Position numbers and translations under genes: made by a program
The notes under the pieces: generated by a model
What the model was told of the DNA's origin: nothing
What the model saw: only the letters and a program-made list of their open reading frames with translations
Database searches by the model: none
Shown: positions 38,301-51,884 of the stretch, piece by piece
Numbering within the stretch: position 1 is the stretch's first letter
How the letters are laid out: the number at the start of each line of letters is the position of its first letter
From: Brevundimonas sp. LM2
GTDB taxonomy: Bacteria; Pseudomonadota; Alphaproteobacteria; Caulobacterales; Caulobacteraceae
Length of the DNA: 64,000 nt
Assembly: GCF_002002865.1 (NCBI RefSeq)
Contig: NZ_CP019508.1
Span: 2,770,501-2,834,500, forward strand
Direction: 5' to 3'

Positions 38301-39035
38301 CAGCGAGGCGATCAGGTCGGTCCGCCCGTCGCCCAGATGGACATTCTCCGCCGCCGTCCTTGTCAGCCCCTCGCGCCGCATCACCGGCTCGGTCGCCAGC
38401 ACGAACTCCCCCGCCCCGGGGATCAGACAAACCCCCTCCAGCCGCGCCTCCAGCCCCTCCGCCTCTGGCCGCCGGAACACCTCGAAAGACAGCTGCGGCA
38501 GCCGATCGCCATACGGCCCCAGCGCCAGATCCTCAAACACCACATAGGCGGTGCCGCGATAGGCCGGGGCCGCCCCCTCCACCGCCTCGATCAGCGGATC
38601 CGGCGTCTGATCCTCGGTGCCGCGATAGACCCGCATGGCCACGCCCGCCTGATCCATCGGCTGACCGTCGGCCCAGACTCGGCCGATGCCGTCGATCGGC
38701 CCCTCGCACAGGGCCACGGCGAAGCTCAGCGAATAACCGTAGTCGACCGTCCGGGGTCCGCTCTTGGACGCCCCGCCCCCGGTCTTGCGCTCCCGGAACC
38801 GCGCCGCCCAGATGACCTGGCCCGTCACCCGCGCCCGCCCGAACACACAGGCCATCGGCGACCCTTCCGCCGTCGACTGCAGCTTCAGCGTCTCCAGCCG
38901 GGGCCCGACCTGCCGCGCCGGCGACAGGGCGTTCACCAGACTGCGATCCACCGCGCTGCCCAGCGCCGCCCCGATCGCCTGCCCGACCCCGCCCCCGATC
39001 GCCTCGCCGACGCCGCTCAGGATCACCTGCGCCAT
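35301..39035 (-). CDS. GTA baseplate megatron protein (gp15-like, TIM-barrel and tail-tip domains)
   Basis: 1244 residues, last gene of the GTA cluster. The N-terminus (AQVILSGVGEAIGGGVGQAI), the Pro-containing linker and PRTVDYGYSLSFAVALCEGP match the rcc01698-type host-specificity protein. The middle has a GTA TIM-barrel/glycosidase-like domain (GLLIGSEMRGLTWTRDAAGG, DYVGIDWYPPLGDW), and the C-terminal half has a phage tail tip (J-like) fold. It would sit at the distal tail and penetrate or contact the recipient envelope. It is preceded by a heptamer hairpin (39069-39175). Confidence 0.92.
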   Translation of the reverse strand: MAQVILSGVGEAIGGGVGQAIGAALGSAVDRSLVNALSPARQVGPRLETLKLQSTAEGSPMACVFGRARVTGQVIWAARFRERKTGGGASKSGPRTVDYGYSLSFAVALCEGPIDGIGRVWADGQPMDQAGVAMRVYRGTEDQTPDPLIEAVEGAAPAYRGTAYVVFEDLALGPYGDRLPQLSFEVFRRPEAEGLEARLEGVCLIPGAGEFVLATEPVMRREGLTRTAAENVHLGDGRTDLIASLDQLAAQLPNLKRVSLVIGWFGTDLRAGHCVVRPGVERRDKPTEPLTWSVAGLDRGSAHLISEVDGASAYGGTPSDASVRQAVAALKARGWAVTLYPFVFMDVPADNALPDPYGGLRQAAYPWRGRIKGADGAGAAAEVEALFGTADGWGLRRLARHYAALAAETGCDGLLIGSEMRGLTWTRDAAGGYPAVARYRTLAGECRALVGPDVTLSYAADWSEYAGHRPNDGSGDVIFHLDPLWADAAIDYVGIDWYPPLGDWRSGAGGVDGARFAGPDDAAYLAGQVAGGEGFAWFYASDADRAAQTRTPIVDTAHGEDWVFRAKDLKGWWANAHHDRPGGVRAATPTAWAPGMKPIRLTEFGCAAVDRGGNAPNLFQDPKSSESFLPPHSTGARDDTMQRRALEAVLGHFAVAEHNPVSAVYGGPMLEGADAWCWDARPYPAFPGLSGVWADAGAWRAGHWLNGRLGGDATGLLGAMLRRGGLADDDVEIGQPVGRVAGYVIDRPMRTRDALEPLLGAFNLVAAERDGRVALIAAEAAGVALTLDGLALGEAASGPLRERALEARPETARVRFIDDGADYQTGAVVVRAEADAGGGGIDLDLAAVCGAGLARALAERTLATEGADQLTLRLGPLESLRLEPGDTVTVEGEAGAWRIGRIALDEAPTASLIRRIDVGAPEEDGPSRPVGGVDPVGRPFVRVLDLPALPGAEAETRPIVAVAVDPWRPMAIHVGETTGGLTQRGIVDTPATVGRLVQHLGAGPVDRWDAVNTVMVAMEGAAPVSVDPETALGGRTLLAVETAVGWELLSFAEAAEVTPGLWRLRRLLRGRQGTESEAAVGAAAGAVVVVLDDRTARFDLGPAERHLGRLARVGPAGSSPGGAGFTEVGFRFEGVFARPWSPTGLSAVAGEAGITLRWLPRSRLGGDGWELEPVEVDPRRFRVRILDGIVERRVFEVEGLEGVYAAADVTADFPGGPGAGARVAVAQYGAEWGWGREAVRPLAA

Positions 39036-39068
39036 GATCTAGGTCTCCAAAGTTCGTTGGTGGGTTTT

Positions 39069-39175
39069 GGTGGCTGGTGGCTGGTGGCTGGTGGCTATTC
39101 CGTCGTCACCGTCCACACCGGTCATTCCCACGCACGCCCCACCAGTCACCAGTCACCAGTCACCAGTCACCAGCC
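39069..39175. repeat. Heptamer hairpin A (GGTGGCT units / ACCAGTC units)
   Basis: Four tandem GGTGGCT units (39069-39096), a 44-bp spacer, then four ACCAGTC units and one ACCAGCC (39141-39175). In the plus-strand transcript the arms pair with one G-U wobble per heptamer. It fills most of the 156-bp gap between the NlpC/P60 gene and the megatron gene. No gene is recognised here. Confidence 0.9.
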
Positions 39176-39191
39176 ACCCCTCATCCACCCC

Positions 39192-39824
39192 TCACGCCCC
39201 CGGCCACCCGAACGCCGCCACCAGCCGCCTCTGCCACCATGGCCCCATCCAGCTCTCGATCACCGCCCGCCCCCAATAGGCGTGGATGATCCTCGGCTCC
39301 GGCGGGCCCATCTCGCTCAGAATGGCGCAGTGCTTGACCACCGCCCCCTCCGCCATGCGGAACAGCAGCACATCCCCCGGCTGCATCCGCGCCACCGGCT
39401 TCTGGACCAGCCACCGCCCCGCCGCCGTCAGCAGCCGCTCTTCGCCGCCGACCTCGGCCCAGTCCGGCGCATAGGCCGGCAGCCCCTCCGGCTCCTGGCC
39501 CACGACCTCGCGCCACACCCCCCGCACCAGCCCCAGACAGTCCGCCCCCACGCCCCGCACGCTGGCCTGATGCCGATAAGGCGTCCCCAGCCAGGCCCGG
39601 GCGGCAGCGACCACCACCGCCGCTTCTCCCTCCCCGTCCGGGGAGGGTGGTCGGAGCGCAGCGGAGACCGGGTGGGGCCGGCCCGGCAACCCGGACGCAG
39701 ACCTGCCCTCTATCGCCCGGCCGCCCTCGCCCGGTCGCTTCGCGACCTGTGGGGAGCCGATCGTATACGATCGGTCCGCGCCCCCGAGGGGGAGGGAGAC
39801 GACCGAGCGTGCCTCCCCCCTCAC
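39192..39824 (-). CDS. GTA NlpC/P60 cell-wall peptidase (gp14-like) with repeat-encoded N-terminus
   Basis: 210 residues. The NlpC/P60 domain starts at about residue 68: VVAAARAWLGTPYRHQ, catalytic Cys96 in VGADCLGLVRGVW, and His in VVKHCAILSE. In GTAs this enzyme opens peptidoglycan during DNA entry. The GTG start at 39824 overlaps the upstream stop (GTGA). Residues about 9-66 are encoded by palindromic element P1 (39624-39799), inserted between the coupled start and the enzyme domain. An internal GTG near 39612 could give a form without it. Confidence 0.85.
   Translation of the reverse strand: MRGEARSVVSLPLGGADRSYTIGSPQVAKRPGEGGRAIEGRSASGLPGRPHPVSAALRPPSPDGEGEAAVVVAAARAWLGTPYRHQASVRGVGADCLGLVRGVWREVVGQEPEGLPAYAPDWAEVGGEERLLTAAGRWLVQKPVARMQPGDVLLFRMAEGAVVKHCAILSEMGPPEPRIIHAYWGRAVIESWMGPWWQRRLVAAFGWPGA
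39624..39799. repeat. GC-rich palindromic element P1 (inside the peptidase gene)
   Basis: It begins TTCTCCCTCCCCGTCCGGGG and ends in CCCCCGAGGGGGAGGGAGA; internal blocks GGTCGGAGCGCAGCGGAGAC and GGTCGCTTCGCGACC are shared with P2-P5. It carries the 18-bp perfect palindrome CCGATCGTATACGATCGG (39757-39774), also found in P5. It is read through as coding sequence. Confidence 0.85.
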
Positions 39825-40462
39825 CGCGCCCCCCCGTCATGCCGCCCGCCGGTCACCGGCCGCGCCATCAGGAAGTCGTCCCCCGGTATCCCCGGAAAAC
39901 CCTGGAAATTGATCCCGTTGCCGAACACCCCGACGCAGGTTTCCCACCGCTTGTCGCAAGTCCGACCCATCGGCTCGCCCCGGCACCGTCCATCCCCCAG
40001 CACGGCGTCACAGCCGCGCCCATAGGTCCGCCCGACCACCCGCTCCAGCGCCGCCAGCGGGCCCTCGACCTCCGCCATGAACCCGGCCCCTTCACGCCGG
40101 ATCCGCGCCAGGGTCCCGCCCCCCAGCCGCACCTTCAGATCCGACCGCATCCAGTCCACCCGCCAGACCGTCACCCGCGCCCGGTCCCACAGCCCGGCCA
40201 CCACATCGTCCTCGGCGATCCGGTCGTCCTCGAGCACGCCGGAGACCGCCAGCGTCCCGCCCGCCAGCCCTGTCGCCCCCTCCATCGCCCCTTGCGTCCA
40301 CCCGCTGCCGGCGACACAGAGCACACCGTCCACGGTCAGATCCCGGTCGTGGTCGGTGAACCCGAACCGCCCCCCGTCCGCCCGCGTGACGATCCAGGCA
40401 TGACACAGCGTCGCCGCCCCGCGCTCGATGCGGGCGGCCAGGTCGTCTGGAATGTGTCTCAT
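39821..40462 (-). CDS. GTA DUF2163 tail/baseplate hub protein (gp13-like)
   Basis: 213 residues, starting MRHIPDDLAARIERGAATLC, with the family hallmark RFGFTDHDRDL and a cysteine-rich C-terminal half (TYGRGCDAVLGDGRCR, then CDKRWETC). In R. capsulatus GTA the equivalent forms part of the tail hub and binds an iron-sulphur cluster; the same cysteines suggest this here. The stop overlaps the downstream GTG start. Confidence 0.9.
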   Translation of the reverse strand: MRHIPDDLAARIERGAATLCHAWIVTRADGGRFGFTDHDRDLTVDGVLCVAGSGWTQGAMEGATGLAGGTLAVSGVLEDDRIAEDDVVAGLWDRARVTVWRVDWMRSDLKVRLGGGTLARIRREGAGFMAEVEGPLAALERVVGRTYGRGCDAVLGDGRCRGEPMGRTCDKRWETCVGVFGNGINFQGFPGIPGDDFLMARPVTGGRHDGGAR

Positions 40463-40477
40463 GATCCGCCCTCTGGA

Positions 40478-40555
40478 GGGCTTAGGTCTTGGGGCTTAGG
40501 GCTTAGCGGTGGCCTCGCGGCCGACCCTCGACCCTACTCCCTAAGCCCTAAGCCC
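40478..40555. repeat. Heptamer hairpin B (GGGCTTA / TAAGCCC units)
   Basis: Left arm: four 7-bp units in register at 40478-40505 (GGGCTTA, degenerate GGTCTTG, GGGCTTA, GGGCTTA). Right arm: TCGACCC and TACTCCC (degenerate) then TAAGCCC twice (40528-40555). The spacer is 22 bp. It fills the gap between gp12 and gp13, and the gp12 stop codon (40548-40550) lies within the right arm. Confidence 0.85.
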
Positions 40556-41165
40556 TCACTTCAATCAGCGGCACCGCCGCCATCCGGCCCGCGTCGAAGC
40601 TCTCCAGCGTCATCTCCAGCCGGTCCGCGTCGAACCGCACCGGCGTGTCGAACAGGAAGCCCGCGGTCACCGCCGCGCCCGCCGCAGGCGCCGTCGCCAG
40701 CGTTACCGCCCCGGTCGCCGCATCCACAGCAAACGCGCCGGCCGCCAGATCCACGCCCCCGACCGCCACCCGCACCGATCCCTCGACCGGCTTGGTGATC
40801 GGGCGTTCCAGATCGCCATAGGCCTTCACCAGGGCGAACGTCGCCCGCACCCCGTCCCCGACCCCCAGGTCCTGGTCCGTCGCCGCCGGCGTCCCGCCCG
40901 GGGCACACGAGGCGAAGTCGGCGAAGTCCCGGAACCGGAACCCGTACAGCCGCCCCCGCCGCGCCTCGAAGAAGGCCGTCAGCTCGGCCATGTCGGCCAG
41001 CGACCTCAGGTTCGCCCCGATCAGATAGCGCCTGCGCCCCATGACCCACGGGCTGTTTCGCCGCTCATGGCCGGACGCCAGGGTGACGATCTCGGTCCGC
41101 CGCTCGACCCCACCGGTCGACCCGAACGCCAGCCGCGCGGGCAGGCGCACCTCATGAAAGCTCAT
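40548..41165 (-). CDS. GTA DUF2460 distal tail protein (gp12-like)
   Basis: 205 residues starting MSFHEVRLPARLAFGSTGGVER, with VTLASGHERRNSPW and GRLYGFRFRDFADF, the DUF2460/TIGR02217 signature. It forms the distal tail ring below the tube. The ATG at 41165 overlaps the stop of a 22-codon leader that begins with a copy of the same MSFHEVR sequence. The last codons run into heptamer hairpin B. Confidence 0.9.
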   Translation of the reverse strand: MSFHEVRLPARLAFGSTGGVERRTEIVTLASGHERRNSPWVMGRRRYLIGANLRSLADMAELTAFFEARRGRLYGFRFRDFADFASCAPGGTPAATDQDLGVGDGVRATFALVKAYGDLERPITKPVEGSVRVAVGGVDLAAGAFAVDAATGAVTLATAPAAGAAVTAGFLFDTPVRFDADRLEMTLESFDAGRMAAVPLIEVRA

Positions 41166-41232
41166 CGACGCCCCCGATCCGCGCCCTTGTCATCCCCGCG
41201 AAAGCGGGGACGCACTTCGTGAAAGCTCATCG
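41152..41232 (-). repeat. Duplicated gp12 start flanking a REP hairpin; 22-codon leader ORF
   Basis: TCGATGAGCTTTCA is present twice on the minus strand (reading down from 41232 and from 41167), followed in both by GA-GTGCG with two differences. Between them lies CCCCGCTTTCGCGGGG, a GAAA-loop hairpin on the plus strand. The upstream copy opens an ORF (41230 to 41162) reading MSFHEVRPRFRGDDKG and stopping at ATGA over the true gp12 start. This looks like insertion of a REP with target duplication, leaving a coupled leader. Confidence 0.7.
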
Positions 41233-41242
41233 ATCATTCCCT

Positions 41243-41773
41243 TCAAAGCCTTCGCGCGCCGAGCGCGGTCGCACGCGCCAGCATCTGGGCGATCTGCGCC
41301 TCGGACCGCAGCAGGGCCGGAGCCCCGCCGTCGACGCTGACATTGACCGTCACGCCCCCGCCGCCGCCCGGCTCGATCGCCCCGGACCCCGCCGGCCGAA
41401 ATACCTCGGGCCCGCGCTCGCCGACCAGATAGGCCCCGCCGCCCCGCACGCCGCCGCCATCCGCCCGCGCCCCGCCGAACCCCGCCGCGCCCGAGACTGC
41501 CCCCGAGACCGCCCTGGCGATCGCCTCGCCCAAGCCGGTGGACCCGCCCACACCAGACCCCGCCGCCCCCAGCACCGCCCGCGCCAGTTCCGAAAGAGAC
41601 ACCTCCCCGTCCGCCGCCGCCCGCGCCAACGACTGGGTCAGACTGGCCCCCGCGCGCGCGAAGGCGTCCTCGATGCTCGCCGCCGCCCGCTCCGCCGGCT
41701 CCCGCAACGCCTCCAGCGCCACGGCGGCCTCCGCCGCCCGCATGGGCAAGGTGTCCAAGGGTTCGTCGGTCAT
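41243..41773 (-). CDS. GTA tail tape-measure protein (gp11-like, short)
   Basis: 176 residues from ATG 41773 (MTDEPLDTLPMRAAEAAV). The N-terminal coiled-coil helix is followed by a Gly/Ala-rich hydrophobic middle and a C-terminal GGGAYLVGERGPEVFRPAG, the classic tape-measure tail motif. It sets tail length and threads DNA exit; the small size suits the short GTA tail. Palindromic element P2 lies upstream. Confidence 0.85.
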   Translation of the reverse strand: MTDEPLDTLPMRAAEAAVALEALREPAERAAASIEDAFARAGASLTQSLARAAADGEVSLSELARAVLGAAGSGVGGSTGLGEAIARAVSGAVSGAAGFGGARADGGGVRGGGAYLVGERGPEVFRPAGSGAIEPGGGGGVTVNVSVDGGAPALLRSEAQIAQMLARATALGARRL

Positions 41774-41781
41774 CAATTCCC

Positions 41782-41935
41782 TTTCTCCCTCCCCCTCGGG
41801 GGAGGGTGGCTGAGCGCAGCGAAGCCGGGTGGGGGCGGCAAGGCCAGGCCCCACAGACCCGTGTCTGCATCGCGCGCCCTGCCCACCCCGTCATCGCTTC
41901 GCAATGACGACCCTCCCCCGAGGGGGAGGGAGAAA
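41782..41935. repeat. GC-rich palindromic element P2 (intergenic)
   Basis: Terminal inverted repeats of about 25 bp: TTCTCCCTCCCCCTCGGGGG at the left end, mirrored by CCCCCGAGGGGGAGGGAGAA at the right. The inner block GAGCGCAGCGAAGCCGGGTG is shared with P1 and P3-P5. It occupies the gap between the tail chaperone gene and the tape-measure gene. Confidence 0.88.
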
Positions 41936-41939
41936 AATG

Positions 41940-42119
41940 CTAGTCCGGCCACGCCCGCATCAGCGCCTCGACCTCGCCACGCCCCATCGGCGTGACCTCC
42001 GGCCCCCGCGCCGTCAGCATCCGCCACTCCTTCAGCGACAGCCGCCAGAACCCCTCCGGCGACACCCCCAGCGACACCGCCGTCCGCAGCATCGCCGCCC
42101 AGCCTGTGGCCTCAGTCAC
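41940..42119 (-). CDS. GTA tail assembly chaperone (DUF2376-like)
   Basis: 59 residues from GTG 42119, overlapping the gp10 stop. The sequence GWAAMLRTAVSLGVSPEGFW then RLSLKEWRML matches the small rcc01693-type phage tail chaperones located just before the tape measure. It presumably coats the tape measure during tail assembly. The ORF continues upstream to 42164, but those residues are Arg-rich and unlike the family. Confidence 0.82.
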   Translation of the reverse strand: MTEATGWAAMLRTAVSLGVSPEGFWRLSLKEWRMLTARGPEVTPMGRGEVEALMRAWPD

Positions 42120-42426
42120 CGGACGCGGCCACGAACGCCGCCGCCACCGCCTCTGCCGCCTCAACCGGCGACACCGCCGACCGGTCCAGCCCCTCCGCCA
42201 GCGCCCCCTCGCCGCCGCCGCGCAGCAGGGCCGCCAGCACCGCCGTCAGGTCCCGCGCCGACAGGCTCCGCATCCGCGCCGCCAGCCCCTCGACCCCCGA
42301 CACCCCCAGCGCCGTCTCGATCTCGGCCAGCGCCCCCAGGGTCAGGCACAGCCGCCGCTCGATTCCCGCCAGCACGGCGACCGCCTCGCCCCGTGCGCCA
42401 TTCCAACCGATCCCGTTCTCGGGCAT
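42112..42426 (-). CDS. GTA gp10-like tail assembly protein
   Basis: 104 residues from ATG 42426 (MPENGIGWNGARGEAVAVLA), preceded by AGGGACAGG. It includes RRLCLTLGALAEIETALGV and LTAVLAALLRGGG, matching the GTA gp10 family. The predicted role is tail chaperone. An alternative ATG at 42438 would overlap the divergent plus-strand lipoprotein start (42437). Confidence 0.8.
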   Translation of the reverse strand: MPENGIGWNGARGEAVAVLAGIERRLCLTLGALAEIETALGVSGVEGLAARMRSLSARDLTAVLAALLRGGGEGALAEGLDRSAVSPVEAAEAVAAAFVAASGD

Positions 42427-42436
42427 CCTGTCCCTC

Positions 42437-42796
42437 ATGATCCGCACCTTGACCGCCTGCCTTGCCGTCCTCAGCCTGGCCGCCTGCGCCACCCCGCCGG
42501 CGCCCGACACCGGCGGATCCAGCCCGGACGGCTACGCCCTGGCCGACCTACTTCCCGCCGAGGCCCCCGCGCTCGCGCGCCAGGCCGCGGCCTGGGGCGA
42601 CCATCGCCTGATCGGCTTCATCGGCATCGTGCTGGTCTTCCCCGGGGCCGACGCCGTCGCCGCCGACCGCCTCGGCTACCGCGTCATCGACGCCGGCGGC
42701 GACAGCTTCACCACCGACGCCCAGCGCGAACGCGCCGACCGCGCCTATGCCTTCGCCGAGCGGTGGAACACCGCCATGCTGGCTACAGCGCGCTGA
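42437..42796 (+). CDS. Small lipoprotein inserted on the opposite strand of the GTA cluster
   Basis: 119 residues with a clean lipoprotein signal MIRTLTACLAVLSLAAC. The body includes HRLIGFIGIVLVFPGADAVA, and the C-terminus ends ERWNTAMLATAR. It is transcribed against gp9 and gp10: its ATG nearly abuts the gp10 start and its 3-prime end overlaps the gp9 stop by 14 bp. No family recognised. A conserved opposite-strand gene between gp9 and gp10 would be unusual in GTAs. Confidence 0.7.
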   Translation: MIRTLTACLAVLSLAACATPPAPDTGGSSPDGYALADLLPAEAPALARQAAAWGDHRLIGFIGIVLVFPGADAVAADRLGYRVIDAGGDSFTTDAQRERADRAYAFAERWNTAMLATAR

Positions 42797-43193
42797 ACCC
42801 GACCGCCCCGCCGCTGGCCAGGCTGATGGCGAAGGTCGCCTCGCCCTCGTGGTCGCCGGCATATTCCAGTGCCGCCACCAGGAACGCCCCCTGCAGCACA
42901 CCGAAGTCCGGCACGATCAGCTGCCAGGTCTTCAGCGCCTGATCGAAGAAGGCCTCGCGGATCGCCGCGTCCGAGGCCGCATCGCGAAAGATGCCCTGCC
43001 CCGACACCGCCGCCGACTTGACCCCGGCCCCGCCCAGCAGCTCGCGCCACCGCCCGGCCGAGTCCGCATCGGTCGCATCCACCGTCCGGGCGTTCAGCGA
43101 GATCGTCCGCGCCCTCAGTCCCGCCACCGTCGTGAACACGCCCGGCGCGCCCTCGATCTTCAGCAGGATATCCTTGCCGCGTTGAGCCGCCAT
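42783..43193 (-). CDS. GTA major tail tube protein (gp9-like)
   Basis: 136 residues from ATG 43193 (MAAQRGKDILLKIEGAPGVF). It has the TP901-1-type tail-tube pattern TVAGLRARTISLNARTVDAT, AVSGQGIFRDAASD and VPDFGVLQGAFLVAALEYAG. It polymerises into the tail tube. The ORF extends to 43274 through heptamer hairpin C without homology. Confidence 0.9.
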   Translation of the reverse strand: MAAQRGKDILLKIEGAPGVFTTVAGLRARTISLNARTVDATDADSAGRWRELLGGAGVKSAAVSGQGIFRDAASDAAIREAFFDQALKTWQLIVPDFGVLQGAFLVAALEYAGDHEGEATFAISLASGGAVGFSAL

Positions 43194-43214
43194 GTTGGTT
43201 CTCCCGTGATTGGA

Positions 43215-43740
<526 letters not shown>

Positions 43741-43744
<4 letters not shown>

Positions 43745-44085
43745 CGGCTTCGCTCCAGGCTCAGGCTCACGCGTCCCGGCCGGTCCGGATCCCCGTCGAC
43801 CGCCGCGATCGTCCAGTCGGCCCCGCCGAACCGGACCACCCGGCCCTCGCCCAGCCGCGGATCCGCCCGTGTCTCCGCTGTCGCCGTCTCAATCGACGCG
43901 GTGACGCCGGCCTCCGTCCGCTCCCGCCGCCGACGCCCGTCCAGCCTCAGCCAGACCGACCCCAGGGCCTCGAACGACACCGCCCGCCCGCCATAGGGCG
44001 TCTCCGCCGCGACCGGCTCCAGCAGCTGCGCCAGCGTGCGCGCGCTCAAGTAGCCCGCAGGGGGGTAGCGTAACGAGGAGGTCAC
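43741..44085 (-). CDS. GTA head-tail adaptor (gp7-like)
   Basis: 114 residues from GTG 44085, which overlaps the gp6 TGA as GTGA. The pattern LEPVAAETPYGGRAVSFEAL, SVWLRLDG, RRERTEAGVTASIETATAE and FGGADWTIAAVDGD matches phage head-completion/adaptor proteins. The ORF is open to 44115 (MDRAVSRGAV), but coupling favours the shorter form. Confidence 0.85.
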
Positions 44086-44348
44086 AACCGCACCACGCGA
44101 TACGGCGCGATCCACGCCTCCACGGGCCGGATCGACATCTCCACCTCGCCCCGCTCATAGGCCCTCAGCGCCAGCATCAGGATCGCCAGCCGCAGCGGCG
44201 CCGCCGAGGTCGAGGTCAGGGCAAGCCCCACCTCCCCCTCGACCCGCGCCCGGGCCGCATCGATCAGCGTCTGGATCAGCCCGTCCTCCGCCTCATGCGC
44301 GACGCGCAGGAACAGCTTCGCCTCCGTGAGGCTCACGGGTGCGGTCAT
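44082..44348 (-). CDS. GTA head-tail connector (gp6-like)
   Basis: 88 residues from ATG 44348 (MTAPVSLTEAKLFLRVAHEA) with GAGAG upstream. LIQTLIDAARARVEGEVGLA and LRLAILMLALRAYERGEVEM are typical of the gp6-like connector fold. It mounts on the portal. The upstream extension through P3 to 44480 is not homologous. Confidence 0.88.
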   Translation of the reverse strand: MTAPVSLTEAKLFLRVAHEAEDGLIQTLIDAARARVEGEVGLALTSTSAAPLRLAILMLALRAYERGEVEMSIRPVEAWIAPYRVVRL

Positions 44349-44383
44349 GGGAACTCTCCGATTTTCAGGGATTGCGCACGCCC

Positions 44384-44521
44384 TTCTCCCTCCCCCTCGG
44401 GGGAGGGTGGTCGGAGCGCAGCGGAGACCGGGTGGGGACGGCCGGCGACCCATCGTGCGGCCTTGCCTTGCCGCCCCCACCCGGCGCTTCGCGCCTGCCC
44501 TCCCCCGAGGGGGAGGGAGAT
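44384..44521. repeat. GC-rich palindromic element P3 (intergenic)
   Basis: It starts TTCTCCCTCCCCCTCGGGGG and ends CCCCCGAGGGGGAGGGAGA, with the inner blocks GTCGGAGCGCAGCGGAGACC and CCCACCCGGCGCTTCGCGCC. It occupies most of the 189-bp gap between the capsid and gp6 genes. Same orientation as the other copies. Confidence 0.88.
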
Positions 44522-44537
44522 CGTCGTCGTCAGGCCA

Positions 44538-45800
44538 TCAGCTCACGCTGAACTTCATCACCTTGATCGCATCGAAGTTCTGCACCCCGCCCCCGACCCG
44601 CTTGGTCGTGTAGAACAGCACATAGGGCTTGGCCGAATACGGGTCCCGCAACACACGCACCCCCGCCCGGTCGACGATCAGATACCCCCGCTGGAAGTCC
44701 CCGAACGCGATCGCATGGCTGTTGGCCGCGATGTCCGGCATGGTCTCGATCTCGGTCACCGGATAACCCAGCAGCGACGCCGTCTCCCCCGGGCGCGTCG
44801 CCGGGGCCCAGATGTAGTTGCCGTCCGCATCCTTGAATTTGCGCACGGTTGAGACCGTCTTGCGGTTCATCACGAACCGCCCGTTCGGCCGGAACTGGGC
44901 CTTGGGTGCATAGATCAGATCCAGCAGCCGGTCGGTCGGGCTGGTCGCCGTGAACGCCCCCGCACCCCCCGCCGCGACATAGCCGATATTGCCCCACACC
45001 TGGCTGGCGTCGGCCACGATCGGATAGGCCAGGAACCCCTTGGGCTTGTTGACCCCGTCGCCGCTGACGAAGGCCGTGGTCTCCTGCGCCGCGAAGGCGT
45101 CCTCGACCTCCCCGGCCAGCCATTCGTCCAGGTCGACCAGGGCGTCGTCCAGCAGGGTCTGGGTCGCCGCCGGATTGGCGTACAGGTCGGCCGCCGGGAA
45201 CTCGAGCAGGGCCAGGGTCGCCGGATCCGTCTCTGGCCGCGCCGCCGTCTCCGCCACCCAGCCCGAAGCGATCCCCGCCGTCGACACCGGCTTCCTGAAC
45301 ACGCCCGAGGCCACGGTCCGCACGGTGGCGATCTCGCGCATCGGACTGGTCGCCATCAGCCGCCGCTCGATCGCCCGCTCGGTCTCGGCCGGCACCACAT
45401 AGCCGCCCGAGGTCGGCGCCGACGACAGCCCCGCCTTGATCTCCAGCCCCAGCTCCCGCCCGGTCCGCACATAGCCGTCAAAGGCCGCTTTCACCTCCCC
45501 ATCGCCGAAGGGCGATGGGGAGGACAGGTCGGCCCTGGCCGACCAGGAGGGGGCGACTCCGCCCTCGACCTTGGGCCGCCGCGCCTCGCTCAGCGCCCGG
45601 TCCAGCCGCGCCTGCGCCTGCCCCACCGCCTGATCGATTCGCGCCACCTTCTCCTCCAGCAGCGTGTCGGCGCTGGCCTTCTTCTCGATCTCGTCCAGCC
45701 GGGCGTCGTTCGCCCCTTTGAACGCCTCGAACGCCGCCATCATCTCGTGCATGGCGCTGCGCGCTTCCGGCGAACCGGATGCAGTCTTGGTCTCTTTCAT
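44538..45800 (-). CDS. GTA major capsid protein, HK97 fold (gp5-like)
   Basis: 420 residues from ATG 45800 (GGAGACATC upstream). The N-terminal delta domain is a coiled coil (about 10-75). The mature shell begins near residue 100-120: SSAPTSGGYVVPAETERAIE, REIATVRTVASGVFRKP, DPATLALLEFPAADLYANPA, and a C-terminal AIAFGDFQRGYLIVDRAGV. Residues about 92-103 (LSSPSPFGDGEV) are encoded by the same REP palindrome seen after gap, located near the expected protease-cleavage linker. Confidence 0.94.
   Translation of the reverse strand: MKETKTASGSPEARSAMHEMMAAFEAFKGANDARLDEIEKKASADTLLEEKVARIDQAVGQAQARLDRALSEARRPKVEGGVAPSWSARADLSSPSPFGDGEVKAAFDGYVRTGRELGLEIKAGLSSAPTSGGYVVPAETERAIERRLMATSPMREIATVRTVASGVFRKPVSTAGIASGWVAETAARPETDPATLALLEFPAADLYANPAATQTLLDDALVDLDEWLAGEVEDAFAAQETTAFVSGDGVNKPKGFLAYPIVADASQVWGNIGYVAAGGAGAFTATSPTDRLLDLIYAPKAQFRPNGRFVMNRKTVSTVRKFKDADGNYIWAPATRPGETASLLGYPVTEIETMPDIAANSHAIAFGDFQRGYLIVDRAGVRVLRDPYSAKPYVLFYTTKRVGGGVQNFDAIKVMKFSVS
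45494..45523. repeat. REP palindrome inside the capsid gene
   Basis: CCTCCCCATCGCC, loop GAAG, GGCGATGGGGAGG: the same 13-bp arms as the copy after gap at 23385-23414. At 30 bp it preserves the capsid reading frame and adds about ten Ser/Pro/Gly residues at the delta-domain/shell junction. Confidence 0.85.
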
Positions 45801-45824
45801 GATGTCTCCTGGATAAAAGGAAGT

Positions 45825-45963
45825 CCTCTCCCTCCCCCTTGGGGGAGGGGGGTCGAAGCGGAGCGAAGACCGGGTAAGAACGGCCGGCACCCCCTCGTCC
45901 GGCCTCGCCGGGCCGCCCCCACCCGCTCGCTTCGCGAGCCGCCCTCCCCCGGAGGGGGAGGGA
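45825..45963. repeat. GC-rich palindromic element P4 (intergenic)
   Basis: The left end is CTCTCCCTCCCCCTTGGGGG and the right end is CCTCCCCCGGAGGGGGAGGG. The inner GTCGAAGCGGAGCGAAGACC and CCCGCTCGCTTCGCGAGCC follow the P-element pattern with slight drift. It lies between protease and capsid genes. Confidence 0.85.
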
Positions 45964-45975
45964 TAAAATCTGTGA

Positions 45976-46572
45976 TCAAACCACCTCGAACCGCGCCCCC
46001 GGCAGCATCGGAAACGTCACCAGCGACACCTCCCACAGCTCGACGCCCGACAGCACCCGCAGCCGCCCGTCCCGCCGCGCCCTCGCCGCCCGGAACCCGA
46101 TCGACAGCCCGTCCAGCCCCCCTGCCCGGCTCAGCGCCTGCGCGTACCGCGCCTCAGCCGACCAGTCGGCGATGCGCCCGCGCACGAACAGCCCGCGCCC
46201 GTCCTCGACGACCGCGTCCCAGACCCCGACCACCGCCCGGCTCTCGTGCTGGTGCAGCATCCGCACCCCCGCCGCGCCGGTGCGCCTCAGACTGTCCGTG
46301 AACGCCCCCGCGGCCACCACATCCCCGTTCAGATCCGCCACGCCCCACAGGGAGGCGTAGCCCTGGATCAGGAGGGCACCGTCGCTCTCCCTCCCCCTCG
46401 GGGGAGGGTGGTCGAAGCGCAGCGAAGACCGGGTGGGAACGGCCCGGCGATCCATCGTGCGGCCTTTCCCGGCCGCCCCCACCCGGTCGCTTCGCGACCT
46501 GTGCGGAGCCGATCGTATACGATCGGCCCGCGCCCCCGAGGGGGAGGGAGAAAACCGCGCCGCATCCCTCAT
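45976..46572 (-). CDS. GTA prohead protease (gp4-like) with repeat-encoded N-terminus
   Basis: 198 residues. The protease domain begins near residue 66: ALLIQGYASLWGVADLNGDV, MLHQHESRAVVGVWDAV and the catalytic Ser in LDGLSIGFRA, as in HK97 U35/S78 proteases. It trims capsid precursors. ATG 46572 overlaps the upstream gene stop as ATGA, but residues about 7-62 come from palindromic element P5, inserted between start and domain. It has no in-frame ATG right after the element, so the fused form is probably made. Confidence 0.85.
   Translation of the reverse strand: MRDAARFSPSPSGARADRIRSAPHRSRSDRVGAAGKGRTMDRRAVPTRSSLRFDHPPPRGRESDGALLIQGYASLWGVADLNGDVVAAGAFTDSLRRTGAAGVRMLHQHESRAVVGVWDAVVEDGRGLFVRGRIADWSAEARYAQALSRAGGLDGLSIGFRAARARRDGRLRVLSGVELWEVSLVTFPMLPGARFEVV
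46385..46554. repeat. GC-rich palindromic element P5 (inside the protease gene)
   Basis: It begins CTCTCCCTCCCCCTCGGGGG and ends CCCCCGAGGGGGAGGGAG. Like P1 it contains the extra 18-bp palindrome CCGATCGTATACGATCGG (46509-46526) near the right end. Its coding frame differs from that of P1, so the encoded peptides are unrelated. Confidence 0.85.
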
Positions 46573-46796
46573 TCCCCCGCCTCCAGCCGCTTCTCGATCC
46601 GCTCGACCGCCGCCCGCGTCGCGATCCCCTGCTCCTCCAGCCGCGTCAGCCGCTCAGCCACCAGCCTCTGCTCCCCGACGCGCTCCTCCAGCGACGCGAT
46701 CCGCGCCGCCGCCCCGCCGGCCCAGACCAGGCCGCCGATCGTCTGCACCGCCAACGCCACGGCCAGGCCGGTCGCGAGTTTTCGTAGGTCGTCCAT
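46569..46796 (-). CDS. Small GTA protein with one membrane helix and a coiled coil
   Basis: 75 residues from ATG 46796 (MDDLRKLATGLAVALAVQTI). A hydrophobic segment at about 8-27 is followed by a charged coiled coil ASLEERVGEQRLVAERLTRL. The position between portal and protease matches the small gp3.5 slot of other GTAs, but the sequence alone does not identify it. The stop overlaps the protease ATG. The reading frame runs upstream through heptamer hairpin D, which is not expected to be translated. Confidence 0.75.
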   Translation of the reverse strand: MDDLRKLATGLAVALAVQTIGGLVWAGGAAARIASLEERVGEQRLVAERLTRLEEQGIATRAAVERIEKRLEAGE

Positions 46797-46811
46797 GTCT
46801 CGCTCCGCTCG

Positions 46812-46930
46812 GGTGGCTGGTGGCTGGTGGCTGGTGGCTGGTGGCTGGTGGCTGTCCGCGTCATCCGCGGTGCCAGGCGTCAAGGCCGGTCGCCGTACAG
46901 GCAGTCACCAGCCACCAGCCACCAGCCACC
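46812..46930. repeat. Heptamer hairpin D (GGTGGCT / AGCCACC units)
   Basis: Six perfect GGTGGCT units (46812-46853), a 49-bp spacer, then AGTCACC and three AGCCACC units (46903-46930). It uses the same heptamer as hairpin A, 7.7 kb away. It fills the gap between the portal gene and the small protein gene. Confidence 0.92.
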
Positions 46931-46947
46931 CCCTGACCCAACCACCC

Positions 46948-48120
46948 CTACCCAGCCACCCCCGCCATCCGCCGCCGCTCCTCGTCCGTCAGGAACCCCG
47001 CCCCCGACAGCCGCGCCCACAGGGCATCGCGCTCGGGCTGCAGCGCCGGCACCGCGTCCAGGTCCGGCTCGATCCGCACGCCCGAAAACCGCCCGCCCAG
47101 CCACCCGCTCAGCGCCCCGGCCGTCTTCCGCGCCAGCGGCACCACCGTCCCGCGCCAGAAGGCGGCATTGGCCTCGCGATAGTTGGCGTAGGTCGCGTCG
47201 CCGGGGATCCCCAGCAGCTGCGGCGGCACCCCGAAGGCCAGGGCGATCTCGCGCGCCGCCGCGTGTTTGCCGGCGATGAAGTCCATGTCGGCCGGGCTCA
47301 TCGACATCGGCTTCCAGTCCAGCCCGCCCTCCAGCACCATGGGCCGGCCGGCATTGCCCGCCCCGGCGTGCGCCTCGCCCAGCTCGGCCTTCAGCAGGGC
47401 GAACTGCGCCTCGGTCAGCCGCTCCCCGTCCGCCCCCTTGAACACCAGGGCCCCGCTGGGCCGCGCCGCATTGTCCAGCAGCGCCTTGTTCCAGGCCCCC
47501 GAGGCATTGTGCACGTCGATGGCCGCCGCCGCCGCCTCCAGCGGCGAAAATCCGTAATGGTCGTCGGTCGGGTTCCACAGCTTCAGCTGCATCACCGGCA
47601 TCCAGCCGTCGGCCGCCCGCCCGATCCGCACCGACCGCCCGCCGACCGCATAGTCATAGGCGTCCGGCCACCCGGCCCGGCCGGGCACCACCTGCACCCG
47701 GTCGGGCCGCAGCGACCACAGCTCTTCGGGCTCGGTCTCCCCCACCGCCTCGACATAGGCATTGCCCGCCGTCTGCAGCGCGCCATACAGGCCCTCCAAC
47801 CACTCGGCCCCCGACTGCTCGGGATTGGGCTGACGCAGCAGCCGCGCGGCCGGATGGTCGTCGTCCCGCGCCCCGTCGGCGAACACCACCAGGGGCGTCG
47901 CCGCGCAGGCCTCGGCGATCATCCGCACGCAGCGATAGGCCACGGCGTTCCTGGCGAACCCCTCGCGCGCCAGACTGCCATAGTCGCGCGGCGTCCACCG
48001 GGGCCGCCCCGCGCCGGTCAGGGCGATCAGGGGGCCCGCGCGGCTGGCCTTGGTCTCGTCCGCGCCCGCCGTGGCGGCCGCCCGCGACCGGCCCGGCTTC
48101 CACCAGCTGGAAATTGCCAT
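46948..48120 (-). CDS. GTA portal protein (gp3-like)
   Basis: 390 residues from ATG 48120 (MAISSWWKPGRSR). Portal hallmarks are EGFARNAVAYRCVRMIAEAC, PLVVFADG, WLEGLYGALQTAGNAYVEAV, ELWSLRPDRVQVVPG and FGVPPQLLGIPGDATYANYR. It forms the dodecameric DNA channel of the head. The longer ORF to 48372 is antisense to the small plus-strand gene and is rejected. Confidence 0.93.
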   Translation of the reverse strand: MAISSWWKPGRSRAAATAGADETKASRAGPLIALTGAGRPRWTPRDYGSLAREGFARNAVAYRCVRMIAEACAATPLVVFADGARDDDHPAARLLRQPNPEQSGAEWLEGLYGALQTAGNAYVEAVGETEPEELWSLRPDRVQVVPGRAGWPDAYDYAVGGRSVRIGRAADGWMPVMQLKLWNPTDDHYGFSPLEAAAAAIDVHNASGAWNKALLDNAARPSGALVFKGADGERLTEAQFALLKAELGEAHAGAGNAGRPMVLEGGLDWKPMSMSPADMDFIAGKHAAAREIALAFGVPPQLLGIPGDATYANYREANAAFWRGTVVPLARKTAGALSGWLGGRFSGVRIEPDLDAVPALQPERDALWARLSGAGFLTDEERRRMAGVAG

Positions 48121-48237: not shown

Positions 48238-48429
48238 ATGACGGACTTCGATCAATTTGCGGTGCAGGTCGGCCGCACCGACCTGGGCTCCTGGCACTGG
48301 TCGGTCATCGACCGGGACGGCGCCGTCATCGCGCGCGGCCGGGGTCAGGACCAGACCGAGGCCCGGTGCCATGCCCTCACCCGGGCCCGCACGCTGTCGC
48401 GAACCCTCCGCGTCGCGGAGCCCGCGTGA
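48238..48429 (+). CDS. Small protein of unknown function opposite the portal gene
   Basis: 63 residues from ATG 48238 with GGAGGG 7 bases upstream. The sequence has GRTDLGSWHWSVIDRDGAVI, an antiparallel-beta-like pattern, then a basic helix ALTRARTLSRTLRVAEPA. There is no signal or membrane segment. It is divergent from the portal gene and its stop overlaps the next start (TGATG). Not recognised. Confidence 0.6.
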   Translation: MTDFDQFAVQVGRTDLGSWHWSVIDRDGAVIARGRGQDQTEARCHALTRARTLSRTLRVAEPA

Positions 48430-48533
48430 TGGGCGAATTCATCGCCTTCGCGCACCGCCACCGTCGCCTGGCCACCGGCCTGGTCCTGCTGCTGGCTGTC
48501 GGCCGCATGGCCGCCACCGTCATCCACCCCTAG
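48429..48533 (+). CDS. 34-residue single-span membrane peptide
   Basis: The start ATG 48429 overlaps the preceding TGA. The peptide has a basic N-terminus (AHRHRRLATG) then a hydrophobic stretch LVLLLAVGRMAATVI. Length and coupling suggest a real small membrane protein. It is reminiscent of a holin-like or toxin-type peptide only in size; no function is assigned. Confidence 0.5.
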   Translation: MGEFIAFAHRHRRLATGLVLLLAVGRMAATVIHP

Positions 48534-48626
48534 GGTCGTTCGGGCCCCGAGGCTCCGGCGGCGGGGCGGCGTGATGGACAGCCCGCGGCCCGATCGGCAT
48601 GATGGGGGCTCGGTCCGGGGGCTCAC

Positions 48627-49286
48627 GTGAAAAGACTATGGCCGCTCGCCACCCTCTGCGCCGTGGCGGCCTGCGCTTCGAGGCCTTCGGAGCCCGTGGT
48701 GGCGACCTGCGCGGGCAGCGGCCCGACCGCCGTGCTGGTGATCGGCGATTCCTGGGCCTCGATGGGCGCTCTGGACCGCAGCGGAGCGGCGGCCGTCGGC
48801 GCGCGGTTCTGCAGCATCGGCTTTCGTGGCCGTACGTCCCGCCAGATCGCCGACACGATACGGACGCTCCCGCCCACGGCCCTGGCGGCCGCAGGGGCCC
48901 CGCGCACGATCATCCTTCTCGCGGGGGTCAACGACGTCATGCAGCATGTCGGCGCCGATCGGTACGCCGCCGGGATGGCCGATCTTCGCGCCGCCGCCCG
49001 CACGATCAGCGATGACGTGCGCGTCGTCGAGATCCCTTGGACCACCCCCACGCCCAGGGCCAGGACCCCCCTCAGCTGGGCCAAGCGACTGGCCCATCGC
49101 TTATGGAACGACCAGGGCCGAACCGACGTCACGACGCGTTACCGCCAGGCGGTGCGCACGGACATCGACTTCGACGCCTTCCTGCCCTCCTACGCGGGCC
49201 ATGAGGACCGCTATGTGGACGGCGTTCACCTGACCCCGGCCGAACACGACCGGTTCGGCGCCTATCTGGGTGCCGCAGCGCGCTGA
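48627..49286 (+). CDS. SGNH/GDSL-family hydrolase lipoprotein
   Basis: 219 residues from GTG 48627. The signal ends in AVAACAS, a lipobox-like Cys. SGNH blocks are VLVIGDSWASMG (block I Ser), IGFRGRTSRQIADTI, IILLAGVNDVMQ (Gly/Asn block) and the terminal DGVHLTPAEHDRFG with Asp and His. It is probably a periplasmic or surface esterase. It sits next to the spike protein, which carries another SGNH domain, and both may act on surface glycan acyl groups (inference). Confidence 0.82.
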   Translation: MKRLWPLATLCAVAACASRPSEPVVATCAGSGPTAVLVIGDSWASMGALDRSGAAAVGARFCSIGFRGRTSRQIADTIRTLPPTALAAAGAPRTIILLAGVNDVMQHVGADRYAAGMADLRAAARTISDDVRVVEIPWTTPTPRARTPLSWAKRLAHRLWNDQGRTDVTTRYRQAVRTDIDFDAFLPSYAGHEDRYVDGVHLTPAEHDRFGAYLGAAAR

Positions 49287-49492
49287 TCCTGAAGACGCCG
49301 ACAGCTGGAAAGTGGGTGCCGGCCGGCGCGCGCAGGCATCCCCGTGGCATGAAGGAAACTATGGTTAATATTCGTTAGGAAAGCCATGCCGAGACGCCCG
49401 ACTCGATTTACCGTGAAGCTGGCGCGTGACAGGTTTCTGCGGTCAGGACACACACGGGAGGGCCGTGGAGTTCGATCCCAGAGGCCTCCCCG

Positions 49493-49621
49493 ATGACGCG
49501 TCTGCACCTGTTCGCCAACGCCACGCTCGACGCCCTGGGCCGCGCCACCCGGCTGGCCCGAAGCTGGATCGCGCGAAAACTGCATGGCCGCCGCCGCGTA
49601 CACCCCCGCTATATCGACTGA
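49493..49621 (+). CDS. Possible 42-residue basic protein
   Basis: ATG 49493 opens a 42-codon frame (LFANATLDALGRATRLARSW, then RKLHGRRRVHPRYID). No Shine-Dalgarno is visible; the bases just before the start form the 3-prime arm of a hairpin (GGGAGG with CCTCCC). The upstream gap 49287-49492 shows no gene. Weakly supported. Confidence 0.35.
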   Translation: MTRLHLFANATLDALGRATRLARSWIARKLHGRRRVHPRYID

Positions 49622-49873
49622 GCCGGCCGCGGCTTCGCCTGTCTGACTTCCATTCCCCGGACCCCGGACCCCTGGATCAGATTGATCCTGCACAGGTCTA
49701 AACTACCGTACCGTGGCACACCCCGACCCGCTGCCGGTCTCCACGTCGGGGCCGAAGCGGCCGCGCCGCGTGTGACGGCTTAGTTCTGCCTTTTTATGCG
49801 AACGAGCTGCAACCTAACGCTGTTGTCGTGCGTAGCTCCGCCACGCGACATAGATCGCGGACGGAGGAATTTA

Positions 49874-50029
49874 ATGTTGTTCGGGGTTTTCGCTGTTACG
49901 CTGGTCGGTGCGTTGGTTGCCGGTATCTTTTGGCCTGTGGTCCAGGAAAGTCGTCGCCTCGCAGCGATGACGGACGCCGATCGACAATTGGAAGACGAAC
50001 AGGCTCGGATCGACTCTCGCGCCTGGTGA
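49874..50029 (+). CDS. 51-residue membrane-anchored small protein
   Basis: ATG 49874 is preceded by an excellent GGAGGA at 49863. The N-terminal helix LFGVFAVTLVGALVAGIFW is hydrophobic, followed by a charged tail RRLAAMTDADRQLEDEQARI. The local sequence is less GC-rich than the surroundings. It ends just before the spike gene, which reads in the other direction. Function unknown. Confidence 0.65.
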   Translation: MLFGVFAVTLVGALVAGIFWPVVQESRRLAAMTDADRQLEDEQARIDSRAW

Positions 50030-50068
50030 TCGCCTCGCGGCGGACGGCGCGCAAGAGCACCGCTCCCC

Positions 50069-51418
50069 TCACCCATACGCCAGCCCCGTCAGGGCCCTGA
50101 GCTGCCGCGTGTATTCGTCCGTCACCCGACGCGCCAGATAGTCGTGCCCGGCCGGCGACGGGTGAAGGGTGTCGCTCGAGATATACAGGTCCGAGTTGCC
50201 CGTTCCGTTGGTCGCCCCGATCCGACCGGTGCCCGACTGCCAGGCGACCGACTGGGCATTGGTCGCTGAAGGATCCAGATAGATCGAGAACGGATCCGCC
50301 GCTGCGACGAAGCCCGCCTTGATCAGGTCGAACCGGGCCTGGTTGACCACCGACCCCGGCGCGGTCCACGGGCCGACGACGGCGATCAACGCCTTGGGCT
50401 GGCGGGCGCGGATCGTCTGGATGAAGGCGGTCACGGCGGCGCTCAGGGTGCCGGCCGTCTGGGCCGCGCCGTCGTTGATCCCGCCCGCGATCACCACGCA
50501 ATCGACCTGTCCGTCCCGGTCATAGTCGCCAAAGGCGTCGCGCTCGGCGAAGTTCAGATAGCCGGCCGTCCCGTTGGCCACGTAGCCGGTGCCGCCGATG
50601 CCGCCGCCGATCATCTCGCCGAATCCGGCCAGGTCCCCGAACTGGAAAGCCCATCCCCCGCGCGCGTTGGTCATGCCCGACCCCGCCACATAGCTGTCGC
50701 CCACGATCAGGGCCCGGGGCATGTCCTGGGCGGCGGCGGGCCACACTGAATAGAGGGCGGGCACGTTCAGCCCGCGCAGCTGGGGCAGCCCCCCGGACAG
50801 CCCGCCGAAATACAGCTCGACGGTCCGCACCGCCGATGACCCGAAATCCACCGCGGTGTAGCGGAAGCGCCCGTGGCCGGTCTCCGATCCCGCATTGGCG
50901 GCATAGAAGGGATCGCTGCCCGACGCCTTCTGGCCGTTGACCCGGATCTCGACGAACCCGCCGTTGGACCCATAGCTGGGAGCGAAGGTCGCGTAGTCGA
51001 ACCGAGGCGCATCGGTCACGAACCGGACGCCGAAGCCCGCATGCGCCCCATAGGTCGGGGTGGCCGTATAGGTCACGCTCCGCGCCGACCAGTTGCCGCC
51101 GCCGTCCTGCGACTGGAACCCGCCGACGGATCGCAGCCTGGGCGAGTTGGGCAGGATGGACGGCGTCGTCGTGGTCGCGCCGTTGACCGTGGAGGCCGCG
51201 CCCAGCGCGCCCTGCGTGATCGTGGGAGCCGAGGTCATGACGCTGGCCGGCACCCCCGACACGGCGCGCGCCAGCAGCCGCCGCGCCCGCGTCTGAGGAT
51301 CGGTCGGCAGGGCGTCGATGGCGGACAGGCCCGCGTTCACCTTGCCGAAGGCCGCGCGCAGGGTGTCGCCCGTGCCGTCGTCGGCGACCGAGCCCAACGC
51401 GATTTGGGAAAGAGGCAT
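50069..51418 (-). CDS. GTA head spike/fibre protein with SGNH hydrolase domain
   Basis: 449 residues. The N-terminal IALGSVADDGTGDTLRAAFG is the capsid-anchoring motif of phage and GTA head fibres (rcc01080/GhsB-like). Residues about 120-215 form a beta-rich domain, then an SGNH hydrolase: RALIVGDSYVAGSGMTN (Ser), CVVIAGGINDGAAQ (Asn), and SDTLHPSPAGHDYLA (Asp/His). It may deacylate recipient surface glycans during adsorption. In R. capsulatus the spike genes are outside the main cluster; here they lie between terminase and portal. Confidence 0.82.
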   Translation of the reverse strand: MPLSQIALGSVADDGTGDTLRAAFGKVNAGLSAIDALPTDPQTRARRLLARAVSGVPASVMTSAPTITQGALGAASTVNGATTTTPSILPNSPRLRSVGGFQSQDGGGNWSARSVTYTATPTYGAHAGFGVRFVTDAPRFDYATFAPSYGSNGGFVEIRVNGQKASGSDPFYAANAGSETGHGRFRYTAVDFGSSAVRTVELYFGGLSGGLPQLRGLNVPALYSVWPAAAQDMPRALIVGDSYVAGSGMTNARGGWAFQFGDLAGFGEMIGGGIGGTGYVANGTAGYLNFAERDAFGDYDRDGQVDCVVIAGGINDGAAQTAGTLSAAVTAFIQTIRARQPKALIAVVGPWTAPGSVVNQARFDLIKAGFVAAADPFSIYLDPSATNAQSVAWQSGTGRIGATNGTGNSDLYISSDTLHPSPAGHDYLARRVTDEYTRQLRALTGLAYG

Positions 51419-51556: not shown

Positions 51557-51581
51557 GGCGCTGCCTCCGTCTCGTGCCCGG

Positions 51582-51863: not shown

Positions 51864-51884
51864 GAAGGCCTCCTGGTTGTCAGC

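Follow-up and report, generated by a model that had tools for sequence, protein, structure and literature searches.

Tandem-heptamer hairpins in the gaps of a Brevundimonas gene transfer agent cluster: probable short members of a family of intervening-sequence-type elements

What are the hairpins of tandem heptanucleotides that occupy gaps between genes of the gene transfer agent (GTA) cluster of Brevundimonas sp. LM2, and how did they come to be there? The cluster, a minus-strand series of RcGTA-like structural genes, lies in a stretch of 64,000 nucleotides of contig NZ_CP019508.1 (positions 2,770,501 to 2,834,500, forward strand), hereafter called the window and numbered from its first letter. 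Judging from sequence comparisons, we consider it rather probable (about 0.6) that four such hairpins are short members of a family of selfish elements of the intervening sequence (IVS) type, devoid of the open reading frame (ORF) that complete members carry. This ORF encodes the four-helix protein S23, or IVP (PF05635, 23S_rRNA_IVP), and we found it, in this genome and in others, between arms of the same construction.

The initial annotation had described four hairpins with tandem-heptamer inverted arms in GTA gaps, and all four could be located. On the plus strand they share one layout: a G-rich array of tandem heptamers, a spacer of 25–57 bp and a complementary C-rich array. Hairpin 1 (39068–39173), between the NlpC/P60 and TIM-barrel genes, has a G arm of 4.1 GGTGGCT units (39068–39096), a 42-bp spacer and a C arm at 39139–39173, with period 7 extending to 39178 in a separate scan. 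GGTGGCT, the heptamer originally assigned to this site, is correct for the G arm, whereas most of the C arm complements GGTGACT; each arm is thus uniform internally, yet the two differ. Hairpin 2 (40476–40558), between the DUF2460 and gp84-like hub genes, has a GGGCTTA arm with degenerate outer units (40476–40506), a 25-bp spacer and a C arm (40532–40558) that overlaps the DUF2460 stop codon (gene end 40548). Hairpin 3 (43214–43339), between gp17 and the tail tube gene, combines 3.3 units of GGCAGTA (43214–43236), a 57-bp spacer and a C arm of 6.6 units (43294–43339), the final one containing the gp17 stop codon TAG. Hairpin 4 (46810–46931), between the portal gene and a gene for 75 amino acids (sm75), has 6.1 GGTGGCT units (46810–46854), a 47-bp spacer and four complementary units (46902–46931). 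The intercistronic position originally given thus holds for hairpins 1 and 4, which start 18 and 16 nt from the upstream stop; hairpins 2 and 3 overlap that stop.

The stems contain 24/27, 22/26, 23/23 and 29/30 matched pairs in hairpins 1 to 4 and, folded as gene-sense RNA, each hairpin surpassed all 200 of its own shuffles (z from −4.2 to −7.7). One detector, run for periods 5 to 12, reported four stems in the window, all of period 7, and no 7-periodic stem appeared in 40 dinucleotide shuffles of the window. Since similar structures recur across many independent assemblies, an assembly artefact is very unlikely. Rfam gave no match for the window at its gathering score, and tRNAs were the only known RNA families in the window and in four loci.

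These structures extend well beyond the GTA cluster. A search of the 3.56-Mb contig for exact two-unit matches retrieved 30 for GGGCTTA, 58 for GGCAGTA and 51 for GGTGRCT, and zero with the reversed patterns. They cluster into 37 loci, four inside the window and 33 outside, scattered at unrelated gene ends; the GTA-specific meaning first entertained is therefore not supported, and GTA-specific regulation was rejected as a general explanation. Exact arms were found on both strands at 22 loci, always with the G-rich arm leading. A program could delineate the partner arm at 30 of the 37 loci, and a degenerate G-rich arm was recognised by eye in six of the other seven; at locus 2982382 no such arm was visible by eye. 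Twenty systematic 20-kb stretches (400 kb of this genome) contained seven stems of period 7; periods 5 and 6 accounted for three and one, and periods 8–12 were not represented. Heptamers besides the three searched could escape notice outside this sample. In 1.37 Mb of relatives the counts were 29, 12 and 7 for periods 7, 5 and 6.

The 30 delineated loci have a median stem of 25 bp and lie close to stop codons: the median distance was 2.5 nt on 30 stop sides (range −18 to 22) and 50 nt on 30 start sides, gene ends being taken from a simple in-house caller with exact stops and approximate starts. Neighbouring genes were in tandem at 24 loci, convergent at three and divergent, hence without a stop side, at three. 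The presence of four loci within 7.85 kb has a P value of 0.0025 (37 placed uniformly) or 0.012 (36 over 1.99 Mb), both computed post hoc, after the cluster in the window had been noticed; smaller clusters exist elsewhere in the genome. Along the contig the loci occur at 0–0.63, 1.515 and 2.2–3.56 Mb and are sparser toward the terminus, with 29 of 37 in the origin half (dnaA at 840) and a largest empty stretch of 889 kb (P 0.00075, uniform); after collapsing to 21 clusters, the origin half holds only 15 (P 0.08). Neighbouring hairpins do not appear to avoid sharing a heptamer: by hand count, 13 of 16 pairs less than 20 kb apart differ, against ~10.7 expected.

At two of the 37 loci the loop reaches 391 or 397 bp, and the small ORFs in these loops are the two PF05635 genes of the genome, its sole matches to this family. 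The heptamers of their arms account for 28 of the 37 loci. The protein bears the NCBIfam name 'four helix bundle protein' (TIGR02436) and its nearest solved structure by sequence is Xcc0516 (2GSC, E 3.4e-17); in one of the two copies the initial 20 positions of the profile are missing. A distant relation to Avd of diversity-generating retroelements was also seen (NF033474, E 2.4e-6), although membership in that family was rejected, the score lying below the Avd cut-off (27.8 against 80 bits) and the genome having no RVT_1 partner.

The same arrangement prevails across the genus, where 56 of 112 genomes encode IVP. Among 92 copies (from 96 match rows, two being one broken copy and three fragments from one genome being left out), 91 are enclosed by an inverted repeat with 14 or more matched bp (89 with a stricter seed). 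All 91 stems are G-first, with a best period of 7 in 83 and 8 in three. Genes called on both sides of 88 of the 91 elements are in tandem in 64 cases, convergent in 21 and divergent in three, and IVP is co-directional with its tandem neighbours in 56 of the 64. The elements hug stop codons (median 2.5 nt, 79/106 within 15 nt) more closely than starts (median 16.5 nt, 27/70 within 15 nt).

In a broader sample of the phylum, 52 of 347 genomes carried IVP. A first batch from Pseudomonadota (28 fetched, 26 counted after dropping two duplicates of genus loci) had stems in 20 copies, all G-first and 18 best at period 7. A second batch, from which four rows under the family cut-off were left out and in which two loci have identical arms, had stems in 24 of 35, with 21 G-first and 18 best at period 7. 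Plasmids (17 of 36 records: 14 cyanobacterial and one each from Azospirillum, Gemmatirosa and Riemerella) had stems in 16 of 17, all G-first and 13 best at period 7. Over all sets, 151 of 170 copies have a stem of at least 14 bp, 148 of them G-first, with period 7 in 132 and period 8 in 13. By comparison, 230 windows shifted off IVP at the loci of 135 copies gave such a stem in 25 and period 7 in none. The median stem of 127 IVP elements is 26 bp. Phage records gave no IVP match at E 1e-4. The window hairpins share with these elements the period-7 arms, the G-rich arm first and the position at a stop codon, and contain no S23/IVP ORF.

Several individual loci deserve mention. Eroded copies exist: one element (L238) spans 254 bp, two others (L236, L239) contain shortened IVP matches, and the truncated copy of this genome belongs here too. 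One IVP copy (L110, 2493–2944; C1:42992–43443) lacks a start and is in frame with the next ORF, forming a 492-aa open frame whose downstream part resembles, by eye, biotin synthase. Arms of period 8, such as GGGGAGTA and GGGCAGTA, occur in L249, L260, L288, L290, L292, L293 and L319 (family f12), and some of their units resemble a heptamer with one additional G. On three plasmid loci (L272, L274, L279), IVP sits between cas6 and cas4 or cmr2 and cmr3, flanked by inverted heptamer or octamer arrays; these genes are probably insertions and not Cas proteins. Triplets of GGGAATC, the Xanthomonas heptamer, were present in three of 397 genomes. In two of these, IVP (a partial copy in one case) lies between GGGATTC or GGGAATC arms, and its gap was judged by eye to be accB-accC; G235, the third, does not appear in the list of genomes with an IVP match. 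L285 and L286, which have these arms, share this gap across two genera, so that some elements may remain in place for long periods.

Identity between IVP proteins correlated with the similarity of their heptamers (Mantel rho 0.39, 0/2000 permutations) among 100 of 135 IVPs, chosen for the absence of stops, a length of at least 95 residues and a clear period of 7. The heptamer was shared by 94% of the 18 pairs at 90–100% identity and by 0% (rounded) of the 2518 pairs at 40–50%. For 84 of the 100, the nearest IVP from another genome had a heptamer with at most one mismatch (100 permutations gave a mean of 11.7 and never more than 24), whereas IVP pairs within one genome shared theirs in 1 of 31 cases. 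Heptamer type follows IVP lineage rather than host genome; matching across genomes and not within them indicates that arms and gene travel together.

Comparison of the GTA gaps of related species gave a view of the same sites with and without elements. Gaps below 36 nt were counted as absent, and gaps without a stem of 12 bp as stemless. At the portal-sm75 gap (46797–46947 in the window), 74 related loci comprised 48 without a gap, eight with an ORF-less heptamer hairpin, eight with another palindrome, seven with a stemless gap and three (L041, L045, L049) with a heptamer-armed element having an IVP-sized loop. The IVP ORF is present there in L041 and L045, and PF05635 lies between arms in L037, L041, L045 and L090 (in L049 by tblastn only). 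The heptamer at this gap is GGTGGCT in the window, GGGAGTA in L029 and L037, GGTGATT-type in L030 and L047, GGGTCGA in L055 and GGGCTTA in L041, L045 and L049, so the constant architecture with a varying heptamer, first remarked between loci, is seen between species as well. The stop codon of the portal gene is TAG, at the element edge, in 8 of the 12 heptamer-filled sites (window included) and TGA in 47 of the 48 gapless loci. Several of the junctions have no gap in most loci; the capsid-connector gap is present in all 61 loci having both genes, with a heptamer hairpin in 21, another palindrome in 32 and neither in eight. The content of one and the same GTA gap thus varies with the species: it may be empty or filled by a heptamer hairpin, by an IVP element with heptamer arms or by a different palindrome.

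We propose the following scenario. A complete element of ~450 bp would consist of G-rich tandem heptamers (octamers in some hosts), the IVP/S23 four-helix-bundle gene and the reverse-complement array, and its entire transcript could fold as a single long stem. Such elements would be tolerated only where RNA breakage is harmless: in rRNA, within dispensable helices, as classical IVSs; in mRNA, between the stop codon of one gene and the start of the following one. RNase III, whose gene is found in the genome, probably cuts the stem, for which its length would be adequate since stems of ~25 bp suit this enzyme. Insertions would survive because the cut probably leaves both neighbouring cistrons intact, perhaps altering their relative stability; their restriction to intercistronic gaps would follow from the harmlessness of a cut at such places. 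Slippage would lengthen and shorten the arms and keep them long, which would explain why the units of any one arm are alike yet change from species to species. Most copies would then lose the ORF, and the hairpin would remain. Mobility of the complete element and an action of IVP on its own arms are further presumed parts of this scenario.

The closest known counterparts are the 23S rRNA IVSs of Coxiella and Leptospira, in which the IVP ORF lies inside complementary, stem-forming ends over ~430–450 bp. Complementary ends forming a long stem are also present in the window hairpins. Unlike those IVSs, the present elements lie between protein genes (GTA genes in the window, not an rRNA gene), the four window hairpins are ORF-less and both arms are clear heptamer arrays. 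To our knowledge, short rRNA IVSs also lack the S23/IVP ORF, which is limited to the long forms. The Coxiella IVS measures 428 nt, forms a stem around the S23 ORF and is excised by RNase III, with a cleavage site at the first heptamer repeat; ahead of the ORF stand one degenerate heptamer and, according to the strain, two or three in tandem, and in one strain the ORF has a 176-bp deletion (Warrier et al. 2016, PMC4990558). The same text argues that S23 is probably not produced in vivo in Coxiella and gives S23 proteins no known function.

Paired inverted arms inside a GTA operon were initially not known to have been described, which is partly correct. For GTA clusters we found no heptamer hairpin reported in the open-licence PMC literature, seen mostly as titles and abstract beginnings, but inverted heptamer pairs are already in print for Xanthomonas: the portions of that work available to us report 70 and 75 convergent pairs in two genomes, near the upstream ORF, with a functional role that remains to be elucidated (Rehm et al. 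2015, PMC4692102). These GGGAATC pairs are tandem 7-mers, convergent, mostly intergenic and near the upstream ORF, and the window hairpins likewise are convergently paired, intergenic and near the upstream stop; the heptamers and the class of host differ, and in those portions the pairs are not connected with IVP (PMC4692102). Lists of four-helix-bundle or IVP genes exist as well: in the sections we could consult, 18 in cas loci appear among CRISPR-Cas-associated functions (PMC3936711), others are merely listed (PMC8700078), and the likeness of IVP and Avd is noted (PMC10053308). The IVP genes of that cas list (PMC3936711) belong to the same family and occupy cas operon gaps, as do the three plasmid loci mentioned above; the flanks seen here suggest an insertion element. 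Avd differs in that our IVP falls below its cut-off and the genome has no RVT_1 match. What is new here is the presence of IVP genes inside matching heptamer arms, which links the hairpins to IVS-type elements; for IVP genes outside rRNA, the open-licence PMC literature, seen mostly as titles and abstract beginnings, yielded no link with heptamer arrays. The short tandemly repeated repetitive (STRR) heptanucleotides of cyanobacteria have been described as single arrays, and one is reportedly located inside RNase P RNA. They too are tandem heptamers, and cyanobacterial plasmid IVP genes sit between such arrays.

Several observations weigh against the derivation of the hairpins from IVP elements. 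We know of no enzyme that would mobilise them, and retro-mobility was rejected as the genome has no match to RVT_1, the reverse transcriptase domain. Among 22 spacers of this genome (15–130 bp), cross-comparison gave common matches of merely 9–10 nt and no conserved interior. In relatives, matches of 26–38 nt were limited to the same heptamer at the same GTA gap, others reaching 12–13 nt. Comparison of 47 spacers with IVP interiors gave two 14-nt matches and no trace of the ORF in the window spacers, with one exception outside the window (L062 matches L272 over 24–26 nt at 92%). Because the spacers are unrelated, the sequences offer no trace of descent through ORF loss, and copying in the classical manner of miniature inverted-repeat transposable elements is unlikely; for the short hairpins here, with 22 mutually unmatched spacers, it was rejected. 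GGGCTTA has no IVP partner in this genome, and a related genome (G014) has 78 exact two-unit GGGCTTA matches while its sole IVP has GGGTGTG-type arms, indicating that no matching IVP is required at present. Of the 61 Pseudomonadota loci from outside Brevundimonas, 17 are without a stem of 14 bp, and among the 44 stems present 3 are C-first; one of 43 heptamer hairpins over all GTA junctions (42 G-first) and two of 29 period-7 stems in the relatives' GTA-region loci (27 G-first) are C-first as well. Finally, related genomes in the lineage test are not independent, and the link of IVP with its heptamer may be plain co-inheritance instead of recognition.

Some of these points lend credit to the opposite order of events, in which slippage and template switching at gene ends created the hairpins, which were kept as 3' mRNA stabilisers, and IVP arrived later as a passenger of the loop. 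The 35 loci without IVP against two with it in this genome, the unrelated spacers, hairpin-rich G014 and the uniformity within arms, as expected from slippage, all agree with it. Nevertheless, we hold it to be unlikely: a passenger of random loops would yield neither the tracking of heptamer by IVP lineage across genomes and not inside one, nor the heptamer flanks of most IVP copies in several phyla. Moreover, at many orthologous junctions without the element the genes overlap or leave no gap, so that arms and spacer arrived together.

The IVS-type reading also fares better than one in which the hairpins are intrinsic terminators or attenuators that fix the ratios of GTA proteins. Their position at stop codons would suit such a role, as would the capsid-connector gap, present in every locus compared and in most filled by a hairpin or palindrome, given the need for excess capsid. 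However, no T-run follows the stems, a terminator scan of 38900–47100 found a single site, at 45660, and none at the hairpins, the hairpins lie inside a single tandem gene series and several junctions are gapless in most loci, making this quite improbable. Mobile DNA of the repetitive extragenic palindromic (REP) or REPIN type, moved by a transposase, is very improbable: the hairpins are dispersed, palindromic and mostly intergenic, and REPIN-like palindromes do occupy other gaps of the cluster, but the copies have no common interior or tag, their unrelated spacers largely refuting this idea already, each arm is built of tandem heptamers and IVP, not a transposase, is the coding partner found. 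G-quadruplex arrays, as proposed for GGGAATC repeats, which form such structures in vitro (PMC4692102), hardly merit consideration despite the tandem G-rich heptamers, because GGCAGTA and GGTGGCT have only two-G runs (G3 tracts occur in GGGCTTA alone) and a complementary arm accompanies 30 of the 37 loci by program and six more by eye.

The cluster is RcGTA-like by Pfam, with genes assigned to GTA_TIM, Rcc01698_C, NlpC/P60, the phiJL001 gp84 N-domain, DUF2460, tail tube, gp17, capsid, portal and terminase. Among the 80 of its 105 relatives that were retained, the portal protein has its closest named relatives in Brevundimonas. A second palindromic element, CTCCCTCCCC...GGGGAGGGAG, with two inverted REP-like ends and CTCCC palindromes, is REPIN-like and occupies five other GTA gaps (39626–39798, 41785–41932, 44386–44519, 45828–45963 and 46387–46550); in relatives, such palindromes and heptamer hairpins fill one gap in different species. 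A plus-strand ORF (42437–42796) with, by eye, a lipoprotein-like start lies within the minus-strand cluster, and the portal-terminase interval (48372–51885) contains additional ORFs on both strands.

A wider view, which we advance tentatively and think somewhat less probable than not, is that rRNA IVSs, cyanobacterial STRRs, Xanthomonas GGGNATC pairs and the present hairpins form one superfamily of RNA-tolerated selfish elements. Each IVP lineage would recognise its own 7- or 8-bp repeat, protein and repeat thus being a specificity pair; ORF-less hairpins would be non-autonomous and confined to cut-tolerant places, and many 'four helix bundle protein' genes in operons, those of cas loci included, would be such insertions. 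Neither for the heptamer arrays (STRR, GGGNATC) nor for the S23/IVP protein has there so far been an explanation; their pairing across several phyla, with lineages that match, renders both open to test. It would offer a reason for the closeness of the hairpins to stop codons, for a sequence that varies under a constant shape and for the appearance of 'four helix bundle' genes in unrelated operons. For gene transfer agents, the intercistronic hairpins would be recurrent insertions; they may affect transcripts and could tune GTA expression, but need not have evolved for that.

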